Shown here piece by piece: positions 3,902-47,198 of a DNA stretch of 64,000 nucleotides. Source of the DNA: Allobosea sp. (GTDB lineage Bacteria > Pseudomonadota > Alphaproteobacteria > Rhizobiales > Beijerinckiaceae). Made by a program: the position numbers and the translations under genes. Positions within the stretch are counted from its first letter, which is position 1. Every line of letters begins with the position of its first letter. The DNA lies in the NCBI RefSeq assembly GCF_017308015.1, contig NZ_JAFKFW010000023.1, positions 20,667 through 84,666 of the forward strand, in the 5' to 3' direction. Under the pieces are notes generated by a model. That model saw only the letters and a program-made list of their open reading frames with translations. It did no database searches and was not told the origin of the DNA.

Positions 3902-4146
3902 TCAGCCTCCGAACAGGTCGTCATGTCGTGTCGCGCCCGATCGAGCCTGCGCTCTTCGTAACGCGACCGCAAGCGCCGCGAAGGGCGCCTGTGGAATGGA
4001 GGGACGACGCGCACTCCTGCGTCGATCCATCAACGGACGACGCGGGATCGATCAGAAGGTTCCGATTGCTTCGCCCCGAGTGCTGGGATAGTGCGCCATT
4101 GCGTCCGAAACGCGGCCCATGGGGCCGTCAGAAGGAAAATGAACAG

Positions 4147-6370: not shown

Positions 6371-7300
6371 CTAGTCGCCGTTGCCGCTATCGGCCGCGCG
6401 CAGCGAATCCAGCGCAGGCATCGAGGTGATATGGTAGCCGGCATCGACATGATGGACGTCGCCGGTGACACCTCCGGAGAGATCCGAGAGATAATAGAGC
6501 GCCGAACCGCCGATCTCTTCAAGCGAAACCGACTTGCGCAGTGGCGAATTGGCGCGCTGCCAGGACAGCATGGCCCGCGCATCTGAAATGCCGGCGCCGG
6601 CCAAGGTTCTCACGGGCCCGGGCGAGAGCGCATTCACGCGAATGCCGCGCGGGCCGTAATCGCCGGCGAGATAGCGCACGCTCGCCTCGAGCGCCGCCTT
6701 GGCGACGCCCATGACGTTGTAGTTCGGCATGATCCTGGTCGAACCGCCATAGGTCAGCGTGATCATGCTGCCGCCCTTCGGCATGCGTTCGGCCGCGCGC
6801 TTGGCGATCTCCGTGAAGGAGAAACAGGAGATCACCATGGTCCGCGAGAAATTCTCGCGGCTGGTATCGGCATAGAGACCCTTCAGCTCGTTCTTGTCGG
6901 AGAAGCCGATGGCGTGGACGATGAAGTCCAGCGTGTTGCGCTCGGGATCGCCACCCCAGGCTTCGTCGAGCGCCGCGAAGGCGGCATCGACCGAGGCGAT
7001 GTCCTCGACATCGCAGGGCAGGACCAGCTTCGAACCGATGCTTTCCGCCAGCGGCCGGACGCGCTTGCCGAGCGCATCACCCTGATAGGTGAAGGCGATC
7101 TCGGCGCCATGGGCATGAAGCGTGCGGGCAATGCCCCAGGCAATCGAATTCTGATTGGCGACGCCCAGGATGAGGCCGCGCTTGTTGTGCATCAGCGGGA
7201 GCATGGCAAACTCGGAAGGGGCTTCAGGATCTGGCTCGAAGGCGGGGAACGGAGGATCGGTCGGCTGGTCGGTCGAACTCTGAACGGCATGCCGGTTCAT
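6371..7300 (-). CDS. fabI: Enoyl-[acyl-carrier-protein] reductase (NADH)
   Basis: FabI makes the last reduction in each round of fatty-acid elongation. Visible signatures are the FabI-type cofactor loop GVANQNSIAWGIA, LPCDVEDIASVDAAF, the SDR catalytic Tyr-x6-Lys in NYNVMGVAKAALE, and RVNALSPGPVRTLA. From the ATG at 7300 the product is 309 residues, with a Pro-rich extension of about 35 residues before the core. An ATG at 7204 would give 277 residues, nearer the family norm. I kept 7300 because it lies 18 bp after the upstream stop, but this start is uncertain. It is the last gene of fabA-fabB-DUF3303-fabI. Confidence 0.93.
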   Translation of the reverse strand: MNRHAVQSSTDQPTDPPFPAFEPDPEAPSEFAMLPLMHNKRGLILGVANQNSIAWGIARTLHAHGAEIAFTYQGDALGKRVRPLAESIGSKLVLPCDVEDIASVDAAFAALDEAWGGDPERNTLDFIVHAIGFSDKNELKGLYADTSRENFSRTMVISCFSFTEIAKRAAERMPKGGSMITLTYGGSTRIMPNYNVMGVAKAALEASVRYLAGDYGPRGIRVNALSPGPVRTLAGAGISDARAMLSWQRANSPLRKSVSLEEIGGSALYYLSDLSGGVTGDVHHVDAGYHITSMPALDSLRAADSGNGD

Positions 7301-14809: not shown

Positions 14810-14896
14810 GCCCAGGTGGCGGAATTGGTAGACGCACCAGCTTCAGGTGCTGGCGCCTGCAAGGGCGTGGAGGTTCGAGTCCTCTCCTGGGCACCA
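14810..14896 (+). tRNA. tRNA-Leu (anticodon CAG)
   Basis: This is an 87-base tRNA with a 7-bp acceptor stem (GCCCAGG with CCTGGGC), discriminator A and an encoded CCA end at 14894-14896. The anticodon stem CCAGC/GCTGG encloses loop TTCAGGT, so the anticodon is CAG. A variable arm (GCCTGCAAGGGC) marks a class II tRNA, and the T loop is GGTTCGAGTCC. The integrase of the downstream element used its 3' end as attachment site, and the gene stays intact because the element restores the sequence. Confidence 0.97.
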
Positions 14897-14897
14897 C
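14881..14897 (+). repeat. attL core (17-bp direct repeat)
   Basis: CCTCTCCTGGGCACCAC spans the 3' end of tRNA-Leu and one following base. The same 17 bases occur at 47182-47198, and the flanking bases differ on both sides. A P4-type integrase starts 164 bp away. Confidence 0.93.
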
Positions 14898-15061: not shown

Positions 15062-16285
15062 ATGCCCCTGACAGACGTTGCGATAAGGAATGCCAAGCCG
15101 GCCGGACGGACTGTGAAGCTGTCCGATGGTGGCGGCCTCCAGCTCTGGATTGAGCCGAAAGGCGGCAAACTCTGGCGTCTCGCCTACCGATTCGACGGCA
15201 AGCAGAAGAAACTCTCAATCGGCACTTACCCGGCGATCGACCTTCGCGCCGCTCGGGCGAAGCGAGAGGAAGCCAAGACGCTCCTGCGTGATGGCAAAGA
15301 CCCCGGCGCCGAAAAGCGGCTGGAGAAGCTGACAGGCAAGGCCAACCGGGAAAACACATTCGAGGCCATCGCCGCAGAGGTTGCCGCGAGGAAGAAGCAA
15401 AGCGGCAAGGCTCAAGCTACGCTCGACAAGTTCGATTGGTTCTTGGACTTGGCCAAGCCGGTGCTCGGCAAGCGACCGATAACCGAAATCAGCGCGGCCG
15501 AAATTCTCGTTGTCTTGCGAAAAATCGAGGCGCGGGGCCATCTCGAAACCGCGCGCCGAATGAGATCCATCATCGGGCAGGTATTCCGCTTCGCCATCGC
15601 GACGCAGCGGGCGAAGGATGATCCGACCGTGGCCCTGCGCGGCGCACTGATGGCGCCAGTCGTGAAGAGCCATGCCGCCGTGACCGAGGCCAAGGCCTTC
15701 GGGGCGCTCCTGCGCGTCATCGACGACTATGACGGGATGCCCCTCACCCGGCACGCCCTGCGGCTGATGGCACTCCTCTTTCCGCGACCGGGAGAGCTTC
15801 GCCTTGCCGAGTGGCGCGAGTTCGATACCGACGAAGCCGTTTGGACCATCCCGGCCGGCCGCATGAAGATGCGCAAGCCCCACGCCGTCCCGCTGCCCAA
15901 GCAGGCGCTCACCATCTTGGACGAGCTGCGGGCGATATCCGGCGATGGGGAACTGGTCTTTCCGTCCGTCCGATCGGTCAAGCGGGCAATGTCTGAGAAC
16001 ACGCTGAACGCAGCCTTGCGCCGACTTGGCTACACCAATTCCGACGCAACTTCGCACGGCTTCCGCGCTAGCGCATCAACGCTCCTGAACGAATCCGGCA
16101 AGTGGTCGCCCGATGCTATCGAGCGAGCGCTGGCGCATCAGGAAGTTGATGCCGTCCGACGCGCTTACGCTCGCGGCGCTCATTGGAAAGAGCGCGTCGA
16201 GATGGCGCAATGGTGGGCGGATCACCTAGACACGCTTCGCAAGGGCGCAACCATTATCCCGATGCCAGCCAAGGGAGCCGGCTGA
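15062..16285 (+). CDS. int: Tyrosine-type site-specific integrase (P4-like)
   Basis: This 407-residue integrase drives insertion and excision at the tRNA site. The N-terminal DUF4102 domain (SDGGGLQLWIEPKGGKLWRL, IGTYPAIDLRAAR) binds arm-type sites. A core-binding SAM-like domain spans about 98-190. The catalytic domain has Arg242 (FPRPGELRLAEW), His332-x-x-Arg335 (HGFRASAST), His359 (ALAHQ) and the nucleophile Tyr369 (RRAYARGAHWKERVEM). All catalytic residues are present, so it may still be active. It is transcribed away from the tRNA. Confidence 0.95.
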   Translation: MPLTDVAIRNAKPAGRTVKLSDGGGLQLWIEPKGGKLWRLAYRFDGKQKKLSIGTYPAIDLRAARAKREEAKTLLRDGKDPGAEKRLEKLTGKANRENTFEAIAAEVAARKKQSGKAQATLDKFDWFLDLAKPVLGKRPITEISAAEILVVLRKIEARGHLETARRMRSIIGQVFRFAIATQRAKDDPTVALRGALMAPVVKSHAAVTEAKAFGALLRVIDDYDGMPLTRHALRLMALLFPRPGELRLAEWREFDTDEAVWTIPAGRMKMRKPHAVPLPKQALTILDELRAISGDGELVFPSVRSVKRAMSENTLNAALRRLGYTNSDATSHGFRASASTLLNESGKWSPDAIERALAHQEVDAVRRAYARGAHWKERVEMAQWWADHLDTLRKGATIIPMPAKGAG

Positions 16286-19717: not shown

Positions 19718-21499
19718 ATGGATTACCTCGAAACCGCCAAGGCCGAAGGCATCCGGCTTCGCTCATGGGCGCAGGGCAACCACAAGACGACCTGCCCGCG
19801 CTGCTCGCATCTCCGCAAAAAGAAAACCGACCCTTGCCTGTCCGTCACCGTGTTTGCCGATCGGGTCCGCTGGCAGTGCCATCACTGCGGTTGGACCGGC
19901 GGCGCCGGGGGCGATGATTTCAGGCGCAACCCCGTCCGCGAGGTCCGCATGTTCAATCGTCCTGTTCGTATCGAGAACCCCGAACGCCCCGACAAGCTGC
20001 TGGCTTGGTTCGCCGGCCGGGGCATCTCCGCTGCCGCCGTCGAGCGCATGGGTATCTATCGCACCCGCCAGTGGTTTCCGCAGCTTGAGGCCGAGGCCAG
20101 TTGCATCGCCTTCCCCTACGAATGGGCCGGCACGCTGCGCAATGTGAAGTACCGCGACAACGACAAGAACTTTCGCCAGGAGAAGAACCCCGAGCCCGTC
20201 CTTTACAACGCCGATGCGATCAAGCCGGGTGAGGATCTGATTTTCGTTGAGGGCGAAATGGACGTGCTCGCCTTCATCGAAGCGGGTCTGTCCAATGTGG
20301 TCAGCCTGCCGAATGGTGCGCCCGATCGGCCCGAGCAGTCGGATAAGCGGTATGAGCCTTTGGCCACGCATGCGGCCGAACTGGAGGCCGCCGGTCGTAT
20401 CCTGATCGCGACCGATATGGACGGCCCCGGCGAACTGCTGGCGCAGGAGCTAGCCCGCCGTCTGGGCAAGGATCGATGCTGGCGCGTCACCTTCCCGGCC
20501 GATGAGACGACGCAGACGAAGGACGCTAACGAGTGCTTGATGCAGTTCGGGAAGGGCGTGCTGCGGGGGCGCGTCGACAATGCCGAGCCCTGGCCGATCG
20601 ATGGCCTCTATGGCGCAGACACGTTCGCGGACGAGGTGCTGGCCACCTATCGCGGCGAAGGGCCTAAGCCTCTCTCGCTCGGGATGGGGCGGGACATGGA
20701 TCAGGCTTTCAAGGTGCTGCCCGGCCAGTTCGTCGTTGTGACCGGCATCCCCAACCACGGCAAGAGCCGATGGCTGGATCAGGCCGCCGCGACCATGTCG
20801 GAGCTGCACGGATGGCGCTGGGCCGTGTTCTCACCCGAGACGGGCAGCGAAAACCACATCATCGACCTATGCGAGATTCACGCTGCACTGCCGTTCCATG
20901 ATGGCCCGTCGATGCGCATGGACGAGGAGCAGTTGCATACCTCGATGCGGTGGGTTCACGAGCGCTTCATGTTCATCGACTCGGGCGAGCATACCCCGTC
21001 GATCGATTGGGTTCTGGAGCGTGCGAAGGCTGCCGTTCTGCGAAAGGGCATCAATGGCCTGATCGTCGACCCCTACAACGAACTGGAGGCCGGCCGCCCT
21101 CAAGGCATGACGGAAACGGAGTTCGTCTCGCAGCTCATCAGCAAGTGCAAGCGCTTCGCCAAGGTCCACGGCGTGACGGTGTTCATGGTTGCGCACCCGA
21201 CGAAGATATCGAACCCGGCTGGCGGCAAAGAGCCTGTGCCGGGCCTCTATGACATCTCGGGCTCGGCTCACTGGCGCAACAAGGCGGATGCCGGCTTGGT
21301 CGTTTACCGCGACTTCGAAGACCGCTGCACCATGGTCATTGCGAAGAAGATCAGGCGGCAGCCCATCTGCGGTCATCCGGGGCAGGTGAAGTTCTGGTTC
21401 ATGAGCGCGAGCCGTCGCTTCGAAGTGGTCGAAGGGAGCTATCGCACCCAGGGCCAGGAAACCGGGTCCGCCGCCAACAACAACCGTCGCTCCGCGTGA
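19718..21499 (+). CDS. Phage-type primase-helicase (zinc finger, Toprim, RecA-like)
   Basis: This 593-residue T7 gp4/Twinkle-like protein probably primes and unwinds the element's DNA. A four-Cys zinc finger uses Cys26, Cys29, Cys54 and Cys57 (CPRC, CHHC). The Toprim core has EGEMD at 178-182 and TDMDGPG at 232-238. The DnaB-like helicase domain has Walker A GIPNHGKS at 343-350, Walker B INGLIVDPYNELE, and a later FMVAHPTKI block. All key residues are present. It follows the DUF1376 gene by 2 bp. A short C-terminal fragment of a second, broken copy lies at 24737-24871. Confidence 0.93.
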   Translation: MDYLETAKAEGIRLRSWAQGNHKTTCPRCSHLRKKKTDPCLSVTVFADRVRWQCHHCGWTGGAGGDDFRRNPVREVRMFNRPVRIENPERPDKLLAWFAGRGISAAAVERMGIYRTRQWFPQLEAEASCIAFPYEWAGTLRNVKYRDNDKNFRQEKNPEPVLYNADAIKPGEDLIFVEGEMDVLAFIEAGLSNVVSLPNGAPDRPEQSDKRYEPLATHAAELEAAGRILIATDMDGPGELLAQELARRLGKDRCWRVTFPADETTQTKDANECLMQFGKGVLRGRVDNAEPWPIDGLYGADTFADEVLATYRGEGPKPLSLGMGRDMDQAFKVLPGQFVVVTGIPNHGKSRWLDQAAATMSELHGWRWAVFSPETGSENHIIDLCEIHAALPFHDGPSMRMDEEQLHTSMRWVHERFMFIDSGEHTPSIDWVLERAKAAVLRKGINGLIVDPYNELEAGRPQGMTETEFVSQLISKCKRFAKVHGVTVFMVAHPTKISNPAGGKEPVPGLYDISGSAHWRNKADAGLVVYRDFEDRCTMVIAKKIRRQPICGHPGQVKFWFMSASRRFEVVEGSYRTQGQETGSAANNNRRSA

Positions 21500-22920: not shown

Positions 22921-24087
22921 TCATTTGGGACCGTCTTCGTCGAACATGACGAAACTTCCGTTGGCGACGGGATCAATGCGATCAGCCTGGGAAATTGCCC
23001 ACCTTCGCCATTTATCGAGTTTCTCGCGAGCGATATTACCGGGCCGCTTTTCCCACTCACGCACCGCTTGATCAACATAGGACCGAATAGCAGATGCCTT
23101 TCGGAGATTGTCCGCGTCATCGAGCAGCCGTTTGACCCGCGCTTGCTCCAGAGCCGCTTGCTGCTCCTTGGTTTCGCGCTCGATGCGCTCCCGCTCTTGA
23201 CGGTCTCGCTCTATCGCGAGGTCCCGCCGTTGGATGCGCCAGTCCCTTAGGTCTGCGAACCCTTGGCGGTAACTGAGTTCTGCATCAACAAATAGCTCCG
23301 TAAGGATTTCCGCGGCCGATGCTTCCAGCTTGCCGCTCTCGGTGTCGGACCAGACCCGACCGCCCGATTCTCGCTCATCTCGAAATGGCCCGAGCACGAC
23401 CTCGACCTCTTCGCGCTCTTCTCGCTCGCGACGACCGGATATCGTCTTGTAAGAGTGTTTGGCGACCTTGCGTACCGAGAGCCCGATCCGCGTTTCACCG
23501 ACAGTGGCCTCAAATTCCAGTTTGTCTTTGTCGCCGCGGCGCCATTTCGCACCAGCCCTCTCCCCCGCCAGCAAGAGCCCGTTTGCGATTCTCAGGCGCC
23601 TTCGGTCGAGAGGACTTTGAAAGCGCGGGCGCGGCCAGGAGAATCCACTTGCCCTTTCCTGCTCCACCAATTTCTGTTCTTCAGAAATCAGCGTCGCGAT
23701 TTGGACATGAGCTCTCGTGATGCGATCCGGAATATTGACTGTTCCCACGAGCGCGTGCGCCCGGTTGCGCACGGCGGTCTCGTCCTCGTCGAAATCTGGA
23801 AGTTCGGGAACGAAATCGTCGGGCGCGTCATTCCACAGCCGCCATTGAGAGTCGCCGATGACAAGGACTTCCGGTTTTCCCAGGCCTCTTTGGGGCAGCG
23901 CTATTTTGACGGTCCTCTTCCCGGCCTGCAGCTTGTTCCAATGTCCCTGCGGTGGCGTCGGCACATCGAATTTCTTGCATGCCTTCTTCAAGGCAACGTC
24001 TGAAATGCCGAACCGCTCGCACAGCTTCCAAAGCGGTTCGGCCCACACCAGGTCGTAGAGCTCTCTTCGGGTGCACGTCTGTGGCAA
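22921..24087 (-). CDS. Hypothetical protein with N-terminal HTH-like domain
   Basis: This 388-residue protein begins TRRELYDLVWAEPLWKLCERFGISDVALKK, a helix-turn-helix-like opening ('YDLVWxxPxxxLxxxFGISDVxLxKxCK') followed by FDVPTPPQGHWNKLQAGK. I recognise this pattern from many proteobacterial hypothetical proteins of similar length but know no function. A long charged coiled coil spans about residues 290-350 (RDRQERERIERETKEQQAAL). It is on the opposite strand to the replication module, with GC and codon use similar to it. Probably cargo. Confidence 0.75.
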   Translation of the reverse strand: MPQTCTRRELYDLVWAEPLWKLCERFGISDVALKKACKKFDVPTPPQGHWNKLQAGKRTVKIALPQRGLGKPEVLVIGDSQWRLWNDAPDDFVPELPDFDEDETAVRNRAHALVGTVNIPDRITRAHVQIATLISEEQKLVEQERASGFSWPRPRFQSPLDRRRLRIANGLLLAGERAGAKWRRGDKDKLEFEATVGETRIGLSVRKVAKHSYKTISGRREREEREEVEVVLGPFRDERESGGRVWSDTESGKLEASAAEILTELFVDAELSYRQGFADLRDWRIQRRDLAIERDRQERERIERETKEQQAALEQARVKRLLDDADNLRKASAIRSYVDQAVREWEKRPGNIAREKLDKWRRWAISQADRIDPVANGSFVMFDEDGPK

Positions 24088-24149
24088 GCTCGCCCCCAGC
24101 GTCTATCGCGACATTTCCGACACTATGGAAGCCGGAGAGGAGGACACCA

Positions 24150-24368
24150 ATGGCAGAAACGCGTATCGACCTGGCAATTGAGGCAGGAGCCAAGGCCATG
24201 CATGAGAGCGCTCGTGAAAAGCGCCAGTTCACCTGGGAGCAATCGTCGGAGGAGTGGCGGCGTGATTTGCGCGCCTTCGTTCGGCCCATCGTTGAGGCCG
24301 CGCTGGAATCCTCCGATGAATTTCTGGCTGCGGCTACACGCAGGAAGCCCACTCCGGAGAATAGATAG
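24150..24368 (+). CDS. Small hypothetical protein
   Basis: The product has 72 residues from the ATG at 24150, backed by a strong ribosome site (GGAGAGGAGG, 6 bp spacing). It is helical: IDLAIEAGAKAMHESAREKR and FVRPIVEAALESSDEFLAAA. The pattern 'AxxAGAxAMxxxxxxxRxxxxxxxxxxxWRxxLRxxVRPIVEAAL' is typical of small phage proteins in alphaproteobacteria. It is divergent from the 388-residue gene. Confidence 0.7.
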   Translation: MAETRIDLAIEAGAKAMHESAREKRQFTWEQSSEEWRRDLRAFVRPIVEAALESSDEFLAAATRRKPTPENR

Positions 24369-24736
24369 CCCCGCCATGACTCAGTGGCTGGCGCTGGCTG
24401 GCCCTGATGAGGCCACGGCTGGGGTGGTAGCCGAGCCAGCACGAATGCGGCCCGCGACTCTGAAGACGCCACCTGCGCTTTGACGTCCAGTTCACTCCCG
24501 AATGAGATCCCTGCTCCGCCTCATGTGGGGTACGGCAGCACTGGCGAAGGTCAAGCGCATCGAGTGCAACAGCAAGGCATCGCTCGCCTTCAGTTTCTGG
24601 CTCCGTCCCGAGGGTGAGTATGGCACCGCCGACGGCATCGCTCACAGCGTAGCCGCGGCGGCCTGCGGTTCTTCGGCGGCCAAAATGGGATCACGGTGTA
24701 CTATCCCGATGGCGCGTCCGTCACGCTTGATCCTGG
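24369..24736. other. Gene-free stretch with decayed coding sequence
   Basis: No intact gene is seen. Between about 24650 and 24735 the plus strand reads LRFFGGQNGITVYYPDGASV in one frame, preceded by a protein-like stretch in another frame (WLRPEGEYGTADGIAHS). This suggests a frameshifted phage gene relic. Confidence 0.4.
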
Positions 24737-24871
24737 ATGGCCGAGATCTGCCAGGTGAAGTTCTGGTTCATGGGGGAAGTTCGACGGTTTGAGGCAGTCG
24801 CCGGCAGTGCAGACCTCTCGGCGCTTCGTAGATCCCCTCCAAAATCCCGTCAGCCACAGATTGCGCCTTGA
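24737..24871 (+). pseudogene. C-terminal fragment of a second primase-helicase
   Basis: The frame from the ATG at 24737 reads QVKFWFMGEVRRFEAVAGS. This aligns with the C-terminus of the primase-helicase at 21383-21450 (QVKFWFMSASRRFEVVEGS), and the first 21 bases of the match are identical. Only about 20 residues are related; the rest of the gene is missing. It is a relic of a duplicated or recombined replication gene. Confidence 0.65.
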
Positions 24872-24918: not shown

Positions 24919-25374
24919 ATGCGGACAATTGGTATCAGAGCGGCGCCCAGCGCCGTGACGTTTGCTGTGTATGACGCCGCGGCTCAGGTCGTTGTGAACG
25001 TCGAGCAGATAGTCATACCAGCGGCATTCGAAACTCCCGACGCGCTTAAATACATTAGGAGCAACCTGCTTGACGTACTCAGGGAGTACAAAGTCACTCG
25101 TGCAGGCATCCGCGCTACGGAACCTTCGGCGCAAAATCCTTCTATCCCACGCATAGAAATAGAAGGCGTACTGAAGGAGGCTTTTGCAAGTAGCGACCTC
25201 GAAGCCTTTTATGTAGGTCATATCTCATCGATCGCATCGCGTCTCGGTATCGACCGAGCCGCACTCAAGCCAATGATTGATGGAGAGAGCGATCCCGGCA
25301 TAGAAAACTGGGACCGGATGAATAAAGAACAGCGGGAGGCTGTTTTGTGCGCGAGGGGAGCAGTTAATGCTTAG
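24919..25374 (+). CDS. Hypothetical protein of kinase operon, RNase H-like?
   Basis: The product has 151 residues from the ATG at 24919 (GGGGGAT site upstream). It begins with strand-rich sequence (RTIGIRAAPSAVTFAVYD, VVNVEQIVIP) and continues with helix-strand units (YIRSNLLDVLREYKVTRAGI, IEIEGVLKEAFASSDLEAFY). That order resembles an RNase H/RuvC-like fold of the DUF3010 kind, but the catalytic acids are not evident, so an inactive or sensing domain is possible. Its end overlaps the kinase gene by 8 bp, so the two are coupled. The region is more AT-rich than the rest of the element. Function unknown; the fold call is inference. Confidence 0.65.
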   Translation: MRTIGIRAAPSAVTFAVYDAAAQVVVNVEQIVIPAAFETPDALKYIRSNLLDVLREYKVTRAGIRATEPSAQNPSIPRIEIEGVLKEAFASSDLEAFYVGHISSIASRLGIDRAALKPMIDGESDPGIENWDRMNKEQREAVLCARGAVNA

Positions 25375-26407
25375 GCCGTACAAAAGGGCGGAGCTAAATT
25401 TTGCTGAAATTCGAGAGATAGGCGCCGACGGCAGAAATTCGAAAACTCATCTGGTTCGCGACGCCCAACTGGGTGCCGAGATTGTCATGAAGACAATCGC
25501 AAAAGCCGATCTTATCGATCCTGCAGAATTCTTTGACGAGGCCAAGCATCTCTACGCGACGGCTCATCAAAACGTGGTGCAAATACATTACGCCTGCGAG
25601 GATGCCGACAGCGTATATATCGCCATGCCATTTTACATTCGCGGGTCGGTCAAGGGGCTTATGGCGGCCAGCAGACTAACCGTGCGGGAAGTCATCAGGC
25701 TCGGATGCCAATTGCTTTGCGGTGTTCATAATATACATTCTAAAGGACTGATACATTTCGATATAAAACCGGACAATGTATTACTTTCTAAGCGGAGCGA
25801 GGCTCTGCTTTCTGATTTCGGGCTAGCGAAACAAATGCAGCTCGGCTTTGCTCAACCTAATGGCTTCTATCTGAAGATGGCACCCCCAGAGGCCGTTGGC
25901 GGGCCGCCGTATGATTTGCGGTTCGACATTTACCAAATCGGCCTGACGCTATATCGCATGATCAATGGAAATGACGAGTTCTATCGGCAGTTTGCTCCTT
26001 TCTATGACGCCCTCGGAAACATAGACCGGCCCGCGCTAGCGGCAGCAATCATTGCCGGGGCCTTTCCCGATCGGCAAGCCTTTGGCGAGCACGTTCAGGT
26101 CAAGCTGCGTCGGGTGGTGGCAAAGTGTCTGGAGCCGAACCCGCTTGATCGTTATCCATCGGCTCTTGCGGTAGCTAACGCCCTCGCGGCGATTGACGAA
26201 TGTCTGGACTGGCGGCCGGTTGAAGACCCTGTTAACAAGGTTTGGATAAAGAACGAAAACGGAACGGAGAAACGCTTCGTTGTGAACTCTGACGGCTCTA
26301 CCGAGTTTACAACTACGGTGCTGGGGGGCGCGGCTCGGCGAAAGCGCGACCTTTGTAAGGCTCGGATGACGAGACGGGAGATTGAGGGAACTCTCAAATC
26401 AAACTGA
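25367..26407 (+). CDS. Eukaryote-like Ser/Thr protein kinase
   Basis: This 346-residue cytoplasmic kinase has most of the Hanks motifs: ATP-anchoring Lys42 (IVMKTIAK), C-helix Glu58 (FFDEAKHL), catalytic loop H130-F-D132-I-K134-P-D-N137, magnesium-binding D150-F-G, an APE-like MAPPE, and the F-helix Asp in RFDIYQIGLTL. The glycine loop is degenerate (IGADGRNS). The catalytic loop reads HFD, not HRD, so activity probably does not need activation-loop phosphorylation. There is no membrane helix or PASTA domain; a small C-terminal extension follows residue about 290. It sits between two small co-encoded proteins that may be partners or substrates. Confidence 0.9.
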   Translation: MLRPYKRAELNFAEIREIGADGRNSKTHLVRDAQLGAEIVMKTIAKADLIDPAEFFDEAKHLYATAHQNVVQIHYACEDADSVYIAMPFYIRGSVKGLMAASRLTVREVIRLGCQLLCGVHNIHSKGLIHFDIKPDNVLLSKRSEALLSDFGLAKQMQLGFAQPNGFYLKMAPPEAVGGPPYDLRFDIYQIGLTLYRMINGNDEFYRQFAPFYDALGNIDRPALAAAIIAGAFPDRQAFGEHVQVKLRRVVAKCLEPNPLDRYPSALAVANALAAIDECLDWRPVEDPVNKVWIKNENGTEKRFVVNSDGSTEFTTTVLGGAARRKRDLCKARMTRREIEGTLKSN

Positions 26408-26601
26408 TGAGCAAGATCAAAAACGACCCGACAAAATATCAAAAGCGAGAAGTCTCAGCACCCGTCCCGGCGCCGAGGAGCGCGCCATTGCCTATTGATC
26501 TGGCGAGCGCATTTTTTACGGCTCAGGTTGTAAAAGGCCGCTATCTGGACTTCCGCAAGTTAAAGAGCGCGCCCCCCCGTAGGCATTCCAAGCGGAGTTA
26601 G
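26407..26601 (+). CDS. Small protein of kinase operon
   Basis: This 64-residue basic protein has a start that overlaps the kinase stop by one base (TGATG). It has a Pro-rich N-terminal half (VSAPVPAPRSAPLPIDLASA), a short hydrophobic helix (LASAFFTAQVVKGRYLDF) and a basic tail. Translational coupling suggests it acts with the kinase, perhaps as a substrate or adaptor (inference). Family unknown. Confidence 0.6.
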   Translation: MSKIKNDPTKYQKREVSAPVPAPRSAPLPIDLASAFFTAQVVKGRYLDFRKLKSAPPRRHSKRS

Positions 26602-26616
26602 ATAACGACCGCAGCG

Positions 26617-27123
26617 GTGGACCCTCTGAACAGTTCTCGAAATTTCCTTTTTGGCGCAGCCGTTCTCCTGTTCTGCCCTGCGGTATCGAGCGCGCAGTCC
26701 TATGAGTTCCGCCCAGGCCAAGCGGTTGCGATCGACGGCGATACGCTTCGGATTGGTTCGCAGCGCATCCGCCTGTCTGCAATGGATGCCCCCGAGCTGA
26801 GCCAAGTTTGCCGATCGGACGCCGGCAAGGCGACGCTCTGCGGGCGAGATTCTCGGGATGCGCTGGCGAAGCTGATCCGCGAGGGCGTACGTTGCATGGT
26901 CGAAACCCATGACCGCTATGGCCGCGAGGTTGCCACCTGCACCAATGCCGCCGGGCTCGACATCGGCCGCGAGATGATCCGGCAGGGCTGGGCAGTTCCG
27001 TACTGGCGATATGGTGGCGCGCGCTACTCCAAGGCCTATGACGAAGCTTTGGCCGCCGATGTCGGGATGCATGCCGGGACGTTCATCGACCCCGAGCAAT
27101 GGCGGCGCGGGGAGCGCTGGTGA
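26617..27123 (+). CDS. Exported thermonuclease-family nuclease (SNase)
   Basis: The product has 168 residues from a GTG at 26617 (a stop lies just upstream in frame). An N-terminal signal peptide (NFLFGAAVLLFCPAVSSA) is followed by an SNase domain: VAIDGDTLRIGSQRIRLSAMDAPE, with the conserved DGD and the Arg of IRLxxxDAPE, then YGREVATC and EMIRQGWAVPYWRYGG. It probably degrades nucleic acid outside the inner membrane. Such nucleases are common cargo on plasmids and islands. It lies 15 bp after the kinase operon but has a separate, more GC-rich composition. Confidence 0.88.
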   Translation: MDPLNSSRNFLFGAAVLLFCPAVSSAQSYEFRPGQAVAIDGDTLRIGSQRIRLSAMDAPELSQVCRSDAGKATLCGRDSRDALAKLIREGVRCMVETHDRYGREVATCTNAAGLDIGREMIRQGWAVPYWRYGGARYSKAYDEALAADVGMHAGTFIDPEQWRRGERW

Positions 27124-27514: not shown

Positions 27515-27688
27515 TCAATCGAAGCAGTGTTTCGCCACCCACTCCTCTTCGCTCATCGGCCGCCGCAGCTCGAAAGGCTCGCGCTCGTCATCTTCCGGCG
27601 GATGATCGAGAACGACATATCGCACTCCGCCGTGACCATTTTTGACGCGCTCCAGCGCAGCGATGCGCCTATCCATCTCGCGGCTCAA
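27515..27688 (-). CDS. Microgene 7 of LxxRIxxLE array (TTG start)
   Basis: This 57-residue protein is too short to stand out in a normal scan. Its TTG start overlaps the previous stop (TTGA), and the N-terminus read from TTG, MSREMDRRIAALERV, aligns with that of the preceding gene (MSRELERRLIKMEAK). The tail is DDEREPFELRRPMSEEEWVA. It is the last member of the tandem array. An ATG at 27676 is an alternative start but loses the shared residues. Confidence 0.6.
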   Translation of the reverse strand: MSREMDRRIAALERVKNGHGGVRYVVLDHPPEDDEREPFELRRPMSEEEWVAKHCFD

Positions 27689-27918
27689 AGTGCGCCCTCC
27701 TGCTCAAGTTGGCTTAGTGTGCGATGCCCTTCCGGGTCATTTGCAGCCAACCACTCGCGCCAGCCTGGGCCATGCTCTTCCTCCAGCTTGGCATTGCACG
27801 CCCTGATGGCCGCCGTCAGCTCGGCATCGGTCATACGCTCAATGCGCTTGCCGCCGCCGCGCTCGGCTTTGTGTTTCGCCTCCATCTTAATGAGGCGGCG
27901 CTCCAGTTCCCGGCTCAT
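27685..27918 (-). CDS. Microgene 6 of LxxRIxxLE array
   Basis: This 77-residue protein begins MSRELERRLIKMEAKHKAER. The rest includes MTDAELTAAIRACNAKLEEE and GPGWREWLAANDPEGHRTLS. It overlaps its neighbours by 4 bp on both sides. The shared N-terminal coiled-coil-like heptad marks it as a paralogue of the adjacent microgenes. Function unknown. Confidence 0.68.
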   Translation of the reverse strand: MSRELERRLIKMEAKHKAERGGGKRIERMTDAELTAAIRACNAKLEEEHGPGWREWLAANDPEGHRTLSQLEQEGAL

Positions 27919-28115
27919 AGCCCAATGCCATTTTCAGCGGGTTCAATGATGACGTTGACGATGTGAAAGGCGTCGGTGTCTGCGGCCTCAATCGCAGCAA
28001 TCCGGGCCTCTCGTTCCTCCGGTGCGCAGTCGAGGATATGCAGCTCCACACGCTGGCCGGGCTTCTTGACGCCGGACGCCTTCTCCAGCTTTGCCAATCG
28101 CTCGCTCAGTCGCAT
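27915..28115 (-). CDS. Microgene 5 of LxxRIxxLE array
   Basis: This 66-residue protein begins MRLSERLAKLEKASG. The C-terminal part has a strand-helix-strand look (QRVELHILDCAPEEREARIA, DTDAFHIVNVIIEP). Its ATG follows the previous TAA directly with no gap. Confidence 0.65.
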   Translation of the reverse strand: MRLSERLAKLEKASGVKKPGQRVELHILDCAPEEREARIAAIEAADTDAFHIVNVIIEPAENGIGL

Positions 28116-28328
28116 TTAAGCTGCTCCCTGCATGGCCGGCCGATAGCCAGCGGGCCAGTTGACCCGGATGATTGGTTCGCGCGCCGTGATGCGCCCTTCA
28201 GCGAAGGCCCGCAGGCACTCGGCCTCATTCTCTTCAGCCGTCCCGCACAGGATCAGGCACCGCAGAGGGACGCGCGCTCGCAATGCTGCCTCCAGCCGGT
28301 TCAGACGACGGGCGAGAGCGCTGGTCAT
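28116..28328 (-). CDS. Microgene 4 of LxxRIxxLE array
   Basis: This 70-residue protein begins MTSALARRLNRLEAALRAR. It continues LRCLILCGTAEENEAECLRAF, an ILxxG-AExN strand-helix pattern similar to small phage proteins. Overlaps the upstream gene by 4 bp. Confidence 0.66.
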   Translation of the reverse strand: MTSALARRLNRLEAALRARVPLRCLILCGTAEENEAECLRAFAEGRITAREPIIRVNWPAGYRPAMQGAA

Positions 28329-28552
28329 GTGTCAGCCCTCAGCGCTGCCGCAATGGCTGCCTGCCCCGAACGCCATGCATCCTCATTCCCTCGCAGGCGG
28401 GCTCGGATGGCTGCCATTGCCTCGGGAGATGCTTTGAGGCGAGCTAGATCAGCAGCCACAGCGGCATCCCGCGCCTCTTTGGCGATATGTTCGAAAACCG
28501 GCCTGCGCCGTTCCTCAAGCTTTATGATCCGAGCAAGGATTGCGTTGCTCAT
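28325..28552 (-). CDS. Microgene 3 of LxxRIxxLE array
   Basis: This 75-residue, almost entirely helical protein begins MSNAILARIIKLEERRRP. It is closest to microgene 2 (MKSTILARIVKLEMMRRP) over the first 18 residues. Overlaps both neighbours by 4 bp. Confidence 0.66.
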   Translation of the reverse strand: MSNAILARIIKLEERRRPVFEHIAKEARDAAVAADLARLKASPEAMAAIRARLRGNEDAWRSGQAAIAAALRADT

Positions 28553-28785
28553 AGCCCCTCCATGAAAAAGTCATGCACTGCGGCCGGCTTGGGCGGAACG
28601 ACGTAAACAGGGCAGTCTTTGCCGTCGCCAAGCAGACGAGCGCTCACTTCTGCAATAAGCCGGCTTGCCTCTTCAGGATTGGCCGCCGCCCAATTCGCTA
28701 CTTCACGACGCTCCGCGTTCTCATCTGCTCCTGGCCGGCGCATCATTTCCAATTTGACGATGCGGGCGAGGATGGTGCTTTTCAT
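28549..28785 (-). CDS. Microgene 2 of LxxRIxxLE array
   Basis: The product has 78 residues from the ATG at 28785, which overlaps the preceding stop (ATGA); 12 extra codons upstream are open but overlap that gene. It begins MKSTILARIVKLEMMRRPG and ends CPVYVVPPKPAAVHDFFMEG. Paralogue of its neighbours. Confidence 0.66.
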   Translation of the reverse strand: MKSTILARIVKLEMMRRPGADENAERREVANWAAANPEEASRLIAEVSARLLGDGKDCPVYVVPPKPAAVHDFFMEGL

Positions 28786-28964
28786 TGCATCACCGCGGGT
28801 TCGTCGAGGAGATCGAGACATTCTTCATGCGAGAGACCGCAAAGCTCGACGCGCTCCAGAGGCGCGTTCGGGTCTTCGGAATCCGACCACATGATGAAAC
28901 GGCTGGACTGAGCGTTCCGCGCTTGCTCCAGCCGATCGATGCGCGCGGATAGCTGCCGTGTCAT
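28782..28964 (-). CDS. Microgene 1 of LxxRIxxLE array
   Basis: This 60-residue protein begins MTRQLSARIDRLEQARNAQ, then RFIMWSDSEDPNAP and an acidic C-terminus (LSHEECLDLLDEP). It starts inside the stop of the DUF5681 gene (4-bp overlap), so the array is translationally coupled to it. Confidence 0.66.
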   Translation of the reverse strand: MTRQLSARIDRLEQARNAQSSRFIMWSDSEDPNAPLERVELCGLSHEECLDLLDEPAVMQ

Positions 28965-46165: not shown

Positions 46166-47029
46166 GTGAAATGGGACGGCTATCGCCTGGCTGTCCATAT
46201 TGAACGGGCTCGTGTTCGGATCATCACCCGAGGCGGACAGGACTGGACGGCGCGCTTTCCAACCATCGCGCACGATGCCCGCGAGTTGGGCTTGGACAGC
46301 GCCATTCTCGACGGCGAAGCGGTCGTGCTCGATGAACGGGGAGCATCCGACTTCGGCGCCCTCCAGCGGGCTCTAGGTGGCCGGGGCGGAAAGCGCTTCG
46401 CGGCCGAGGCGAGGCTGTATGCCTTCGATCTGCTCTATCTCAATGGCCACGATCTGCGCGCCCTGCCTCAAGCCGAACGGCGGGACATGCTGGCGGATGC
46501 TTTGTCATCCCAGCCTCATGCCTCGATCGGGATGAGCGAGGACATAGACGCGAACGGCGCCGCCTTCCTCAAGCTCGCATGCGAGATGGGCCTGGAGGGC
46601 ATTATCGCCAAGCGCCGCTCGGCTCCCTATCGATCCGGCCGGGGCGGCGAATGGCTCAAAATCAAATGCGTTCAATCGGAGGGCTTCGCCATCATCGGCT
46701 ATGAGCCATCTCGGGCAGCCCTTGGCGGCGTCGGGCGCTTGCTGGTGGGAGCAATGAAGGGCGGAGCGCTGGTCTATGTCGGCGGCGTTGGGACCGGCTT
46801 CACCGCAGCGAGCGGCGCCGCGCTAAGGAAGCAGATGGCAAAGCTCGTGACTGACAAGCCCGCCGCGACGGGAACCGGGCGAAGGAAAGAAGCTGTCTGG
46901 CTCAAGCCCGAGCTGGTGGCGGAAGTGGCCTTCCGCGCATGGACGGATGACGGCAAGTTGCGTCATGCTTCGTTCAAGGGCCTGCGGGACGGAGAGGACG
47001 CAGCGGACGTGTTCGAAATCGTGGATTAA
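46166..47029 (+). CDS. LigD-type ATP-dependent DNA ligase, N-terminus lost by frameshift
   Basis: This 287-residue protein is read from a GTG at 46166. KWDGYRL at residues 2-8 is ligase motif I with the adenylated Lys2. ILDGEAVVLDERG is motif III, LEGIIAKRRSAPYRSGR is motif IV, and EWLKIKCVQSEGFAIIGY is motif V. The C-terminal OB-fold (VGTGFTAASGAALRKQM, VAEVAFRAWTDDGKLRHASFKGLR) is complete. About 25 residues normally before motif I are in other frames upstream, so the gene is damaged. It could still be translated from the GTG but is probably impaired. Confidence 0.75.
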   Translation: MKWDGYRLAVHIERARVRIITRGGQDWTARFPTIAHDARELGLDSAILDGEAVVLDERGASDFGALQRALGGRGGKRFAAEARLYAFDLLYLNGHDLRALPQAERRDMLADALSSQPHASIGMSEDIDANGAAFLKLACEMGLEGIIAKRRSAPYRSGRGGEWLKIKCVQSEGFAIIGYEPSRAALGGVGRLLVGAMKGGALVYVGGVGTGFTAASGAALRKQMAKLVTDKPAATGTGRRKEAVWLKPELVAEVAFRAWTDDGKLRHASFKGLRDGEDAADVFEIVD

Positions 47030-47181: not shown

Positions 47182-47198
47182 CCTCTCCTGGGCACCAC
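47182..47198 (+). repeat. attR core (17-bp direct repeat)
   Basis: Exact copy of CCTCTCCTGGGCACCAC from the tRNA-Leu 3' end (14881-14897). No tRNA body precedes it, so this is the distal junction of the element. Confidence 0.93.

Follow-up and report, generated by a model that had tools for sequence, protein, structure and literature searches.

We analysed a 64,000-nucleotide stretch of the genome of Allobosea sp. (contig NZ_JAFKFW010000023.1; hereafter the window), which contains a row of three genes at 24919–26601. They encode a RuvC-like protein (gene A), an Stk-type protein kinase (gene B) and a small basic protein (gene C; Table 1). The trio is a conserved unit carried as prophage cargo, and its kinase is homologous to Stk, the phage-exclusion kinase of the 933W group. 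Genes A and B overlap by 8 bp and genes B and C by 1 bp. The GC content of the trio is 53.1%, compared with 61.6% for the remaining prophage, and a value as low as this is reached by 0.24% of 1247 same-size segments of the 64 kb. Both the coupling and the AT-richness agree with an earlier reading made without database searches (the sequence-only reading). Scans for promoters and terminators near the trio give counts that equal the chance expectation.

The three proteins and their linkage

Gene B encodes a complete kinase, as had been read from its sequence. It matches Pfam Pkinase over residues 14–263 (E 3.6e-32) and PHROG 2361 (1.4e-61), and the catalytic residues K42, E58, D132, K134, N137 and D150 are kept in all 19 aligned kinases. 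Phe precedes the catalytic Asp in 17 of these 19, a position that is occupied by Arg in most kinases. The best PADLOC matches of gene B, mad6 (1e-38) and PD-T4-6 (1.9e-32), are both matches of the kinase domain, and membership in either system is rejected; mad6 is also larger (a 659-position profile), and with its NCBIfam model NF047741 the score is 67.6, below the cut-off of 460. A PASTA kinase of the Stk1/PknB family is likewise rejected (NF033483, 91.7 bits against a cut-off of 450).

Gene A matches PHROG 3875, which is named 'RuvC-like Holliday junction resolvase' (7.8e-33). It finds nothing above the cut-off in Pfam or NCBIfam, and none of the four profile libraries (Pfam, PADLOC, NCBIfam and PHROGs) names it as a defence gene. 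All 58 aligned homologues keep R7, E68 and E140, and Arg occupies position 7 in all 87 readable sequences among 88 distinct ones. Arg7 aligns to the motif I Asp, which is catalytic in RuvC. The Arg at the first catalytic Asp, together with the invariant E68 and E140, leads us to think that gene A has moved from an enzyme to a binding protein. The PHROG name would fit a function in phage recombination or replication, in which an active RuvC-like resolvase works under phosphorylation control. We consider this highly improbable and reject an active resolvase, because the catalytic Asp is absent from all of these sequences and the genes are accessory cargo that is also found outside phages. The RNase H-like outline proposed by the sequence-only reading for this 151-residue protein gains the PHROG 3875 match, but at the sequence level the fold is weakly supported; a search with the RuvC-like profile finds no solved structure better than E 0.8.

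Gene A can also be aligned with DUF3010 (PF11215) over residues 1–148 (hhalign E 4e-5, probability 70%), and a Pfam scan with an E limit of 1 does not find PF11215. In contrast to the trio family, 23 of the 24 DUF3010 sequences extracted have Asp or Glu at the site of the Arg, and 23 of 25 DUF3010 loci lack a kinase within 1.5 kb on either side. In one genome (G236:C86, L189/L213), a DUF3010 protein with Asp at this site overlaps an ordinary kinase by 8 bp, and in another (G410:C5, L212) a DUF3010-type protein with Met at the site lies 2 bp from a kinase; neither pair has a detectable third gene. These pairs are possibly a two-part relative of the trio, and for this reason we think that the association with a kinase predates the trio itself.

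A pattern-based scan with the gene A alignment yields 49 loci in 84,980 species genomes and 62 in viral contigs. The 120 gene A loci that were examined comprise the 88 distinct sequences, include the matches from the window, phages, plasmids and relatives, and contain some places twice. A kinase directly follows gene A in 115 of them, and the remaining five stop at most 3 bp past the end of gene A, at contig edges. By the criterion of the sequence-only reading, a kinase that occurs by itself, or regularly with different partners, would have counted against the trio as a system. A kinase-seeded search does not refute the trio in this way: it finds gene A upstream in 61 of 62 viral loci, with the exception starting at the kinase at a contig edge. 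This search used a profile of linked kinases, so that distant solo kinases are judged by the identity gap alone. The phage collection has 14 records with gene A, and precisely these hold its 14 closest kinases (39.6–39.8% identity), followed by kinases at 31% or less, and the five gene A records of the plasmid collection are the five top-ranked kinase matches.

Since many viral loci are near-identical copies from Shiga-toxin phages, we used cluster counts. Clustering at 90% identity gives 65 clusters that contain both genes A and B. The five kinase-less loci at contig ends, L064 (with a cut RuvC-like gene) and L075, L081 and L117 (with stops inside the kinase region drawn by the script) were dropped beforehand, and L087, in which the kinase is split over two frames, is represented in the count by the first piece. 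The gene order, whose conservation across unrelated genomes the sequence-only reading had proposed as a check, is identical in 65 of 65 clusters. The A–B spacing is exactly -8 in 40 clusters and -4 in ten. The distances of gene A and gene B are correlated with r = 0.87, a value reached by none of 999 permutations. On these linkage numbers a chance gene overlap is rejected, and the trio is a real conserved unit.

Gene C matches nothing in the four libraries, searched to E 1. Its relatives are the open reading frames (ORFs) just past the kinase, which are 50–84 aa long with a median net charge of +7. A profile built from these same genes scores them at E <=0.02 in 60 of the 62 kinase-seeded loci. 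Among 78 distinct sequences, 75 have a near-invariant Arg near the start and 61 have Tyr in a C-terminal aromatic column. A profile from the 24 alphaproteobacterial clusters only retrieves gene C at E <=0.01 in 14 of the 41 others, plus L055, where an earlier start codon had been used in the scoring and the gene was hence filed as 'far'. Among the 3217 ORFs scanned, no further distant one attained E 0.01. An ORF of 45–90 aa begins near the kinase end in all 65 clusters, of which that of L034 is unconvincing, and for the most divergent gammaproteobacterial and Firmicute copies the match rests on position, size and charge only.

The tight overlaps and the small basic partner would also suit a toxin-antitoxin (TA) system, in which the kinase is the toxin, the RuvC-like or the small basic protein is the antitoxin, and the system keeps the element with defence as a by-product; KKP, a kinase module of Pf prophages, is described as TA-based in the accessible part of PMC11341870. 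Partnerless relic kinases would be expected in this case, but the sole locus without gene A among the 62 kinase-seeded ones is the contig-end cut. We regard a TA function as quite unlikely, and it overlaps with a role in abortive infection rather than excluding it.

The module is found in Alpha-, Beta- and Gammaproteobacteria, in SPbeta phages of Bacillus and on one contig of a Scytolyngbya (cyanobacterial) metagenome-assembled genome, an 18.4-kb contig that could be misbinned. It is rare: gene A occurs in three of 200 relatives, namely the Allobosea genome itself (G000), G056 and G097. A phylum-wide search gives three of 398 genomes, one of which is again the Allobosea genome and one a DUF3010-type match. 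Genes A and B of phage phi24B are matched in 223 of 5426 complete Escherichia coli genomes, in 221 over at least 80%.

Prophage cargo and genomic neighbours

The trio lies in a likely prophage of about 32 kb, marked by a tRNA-Leu gene, an integrase and two copies of a 17-bp repeat, at 14881 and 47182, in line with the mobile element proposed by the sequence-only reading. The element also has replication genes and a protein with an endolysin-type stretch.

Table 1. Features of the trio and of the prophage in the window.
Feature	Position	Strand	Evidence
RuvC-like protein (gene A), 151 aa	24919..25374	+	PHROG 3875 match
Stk-type protein kinase (gene B), 346 aa, about 80 aa past the Pfam kinase domain	25367..26407	+	
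Small basic protein (gene C), 64 aa, third member of the trio	26407..26601	+	Position and motifs in relatives
SNase-family nuclease, right-hand neighbour, outside the module	26617..27123	+	Profile match; DNA kept in two trio-less relatives
Left anchor of the cargo slot, common to two trio-less sister prophages	24512..24742	.	
Prophage primase/helicase, query for sister prophages	19718..21499	+	
Tyrosine integrase	15062..16285	+	
tRNA-Leu(CAG), likely integration target	14810..14896	+	
17-bp att-like repeat, left copy	14881..14897	.	
17-bp att-like repeat of the tRNA end, right copy	47182..47198	.	

The prophage primase/helicase is present at 76–96% identity in five same-genus genomes, all of them among the 200 relatives. 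The left anchor and the SNase-family gene are 1949 bp apart in the window and 149 bp apart in two of the sister prophages (G029 and G051; L250 and L253), in which the trio is absent. In G023 (L249), the wider flanks (window 24503 and 27515) enclose an anti-phage dCTP deaminase (NF041025, 452 bits against a cut-off of 400; PADLOC dCTPase, 3.8e-157) and a 462-aa ORF without a match; the SNase DNA is absent from this slot as well. In G063 (L254), flank matches of 77% and 67% identity enclose several ORFs, one of which is a patatin. Its best solved relative is a plant patatin (2.7e-26), followed by CapV at 3.1e-23, and of eight listed homologues on plasmids, five carry the name CBASS phospholipase and two the name patatin. 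The empty slot of two relatives and the deaminase and patatin of others indicate that the trio is prophage cargo in a variable site, which is also used by at least one recognised type of defence gene. The slot is possibly a small defence hotspot of this prophage group. The deaminase lies at 7039–8691 of L249 (G023:C1) and the CapV-like patatin at 6832–7809 of L254 (G063:C1). A second element of the Allobosea genome holds two genes of no known kind at 4117–6154 of L255 (G000:C42), where the slot is judged from one shared flank.

Outside prophages, the trio directly follows DarT and DarG on the same strand of the Mesorhizobium plasmid pMspAR10a (L007 4221–7668), a row that is possibly a composite defence operon. 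We scanned ten large neighbours, chosen by eye within 6 kb at eight loci, with PADLOC. The strong or suggestive matches are DarT, DarG, an HKD and Snf2 helicase protein (L042), a type I restriction enzyme (L046) and an Old/GajA-like protein (L059); a defence-type neighbour is thus present in three of the seven sampled loci other than the Mesorhizobium plasmid. The flanks of the 47 genome loci hold scattered phage and defence families among those listed. The proximity to other defence genes that the sequence-only reading had proposed as a check is seen in some genomes, and the slot itself holds the deaminase in a sister prophage.

Stk-type exclusion and a proposed mechanism

The trio kinase is homologous to Stk of 933W and phi24B, with 39.8% identity over 95%, and the gene A homologue upstream of stk in phi24B is 39.6% identical to that of the trio. 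The phi24B immunity region has the order cI, DUF3024, RuvC-like gene, stk and a gene C homologue that encodes a 54-aa basic protein. The RuvC-like gene and stk overlap by 7 bp, and the prophage location is common to phi24B and the trio. A results table of a 933W transcriptome study lists consecutively ST933Wp22 (kinase), p23 (RuvC-like), p24 (DUF3024) and p25 (CI) in the accessible part of PMC10789677, so that the order is matched for 933W in its upstream part only. Because the kinase is kin to Stk and phi24B carries all three genes in this order, the trio is not of unknown kind.

According to papers that cite the original exclusion work, Stk takes part in exclusion and becomes active when HK97 infects (PMC3681748), and in 933W it is cotranscribed with cI and its activity aborts the HK97 infection (PMC3564112). 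Citing papers also attribute little or no activity to Stk in uninfected cells. These accounts of HK97 exclusion speak of the kinase alone in the text available (PMC3681748, PMC3564112). The view of the sequence-only reading that the system is a candidate undescribed one and matches nothing known is not supported: the kinase is of a known kind with a published exclusion phenotype. Its assignment to defence is plausible and is supported by a conserved mobile unit that lies near defence genes in some genomes and in a slot that holds an anti-phage deaminase in a sister prophage. As far as our searches show, what is new is the three-part make-up together with its spread, the Arg substitution and the evidence from the cargo slot. 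In the literature covered, which is thin for subscription journals and accessible in part, no text assigns the RuvC-like and the small gene to the exclusion system.

Two other kinases with an anti-phage role can be compared with the trio. Stk2 of Staphylococcus, which the sequence-only reading had named for comparison, is a eukaryote-like kinase with such a role (accessible parts of PMC11341870 and PMC11676413); it is host-encoded at a single locus (PMC11341870), and the trio is set apart from it by description only. The prophage-encoded KKP module controls virion production and mediates defence (accessible part of PMC11341870). KKP consists of two kinases and a phosphatase, whereas the trio has one kinase, a RuvC-like protein and a small protein, and membership in KKP is rejected.

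In contrast to the phi24B genes, which sit behind cI and the DUF3024 gene, the trio in the window is a cargo cassette in which neither of these two is recognised. Since the trio on the Mesorhizobium plasmid has no cI before it, we do not take a position behind cI as defining. A rival reading is a role as lysogeny controller, in which the kinase and its partners tune the induction or lytic growth of their own prophage and protection is secondary. Such a role has a precedent in KKP and would suit the cotranscription of the 933W kinase with cI. We consider it unlikely: the trio is missing from sister prophages whose primase/helicase and flanks are closely similar, and it occurs both next to DarTG on a plasmid and in phages of very different kinds, so that it is not confined to a single lysogeny circuit. 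Nor does a phosphatase adjoin the trio.

We consider it likely that the trio is a prophage-carried, three-part abortive-infection module of the 933W Stk type. Several observations weigh against this. The alignment of gene A with RuvC is weak (residues 4–64, hhalign E 0.0012, probability 19%). No recognised repressor lies directly upstream of the trio in the window, where the short ORFs at 23952–24792 were outside the scan, and neither terminase nor capsid is found among the ten prophage ORFs that were scanned against PHROGs besides the trio and the SNase-family gene. Three of the ten neighbours scanned have no defence match (L045, L020 and L016) and two have only weak ones (the plasmid ATP-binding protein and L060), and the flanking genes of the 47 genome loci have no dominant context within the first 25 families per list. 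A phage test of the whole trio or of either partner does not appear in the literature found, insofar as its text is accessible.

We infer the roles of the two partners and the working state of the copy in the window as follows. The three proteins would work together, with the kinase silent in the lysogen and switched on by the infection of another phage. The active kinase would then phosphorylate proteins, so that the infected cell is stopped before it releases phages. The RuvC-like protein lacks the first catalytic acid of the nuclease and is most likely a sensor, scaffold or brake of the kinase and perhaps binds recombination intermediates or proteins of the phage; with its invariant Arg at the catalytic Asp position it is probably a sensor or regulator, and the sensing of recombination is a guess from its fold family. 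The small basic protein is most likely a bound regulator or a substrate of the kinase. More tentatively, the trio may be a tripartite phosphorylation-based antiviral system, in which the catalytically dead RuvC-like protein detects recombination by the phage, either as branched DNA or through a phage recombinase, and sets free a kinase whose action runs through the small basic protein. The Stk exclusion of 933W would then be one branch of this system and the two-gene DUF3010-kinase form a more ancient relative.

In the HK97 record (L186, 24175–24780), the gene between Gp40 and Gp43 (kil), which would be Gp41 by its numbering, is erf, which encodes a single-stranded DNA-annealing protein. The HK97 activator of Stk is reported to have been called orf41, a lead that is given no weight here. 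If erf were the activator, a RuvC-like partner as sensor would make sense.

A kinase that is described as acting alone in the accessible accounts belongs, at every site where it was found, to a three-gene unit of fixed make-up, which spans two phyla or more. The two partners are candidate answers to what detects the phage and what the kinase phosphorylates, and the Arg-bearing RuvC-like protein serves as a marker for finding the system.

Other genes in the window

The nuclease that the sequence-only reading placed beside the trio is the SNase-family gene directly downstream, and its export is a by-eye judgement from the N-terminus. On the other side, at 22921–24087 of the reverse strand, lies a 388-aa gene without a match in Pfam, PHROG, PADLOC or NCBIfam, whose start resembles that of a 408-aa gene in the same flank of the second element of the Allobosea genome (L255 6259–7485). 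An ATP-dependent DNA ligase gene is located at 46166–47029, just inside the right att-like repeat. At 27515–28964 of the reverse strand, seven small ORFs of 57–90 aa follow one another in a row, mostly with 4-bp overlaps. Their starts are alike (LARIxKLE, LSxRIxRLE), and they look like tandem paralogues beside a DUF5681 gene.
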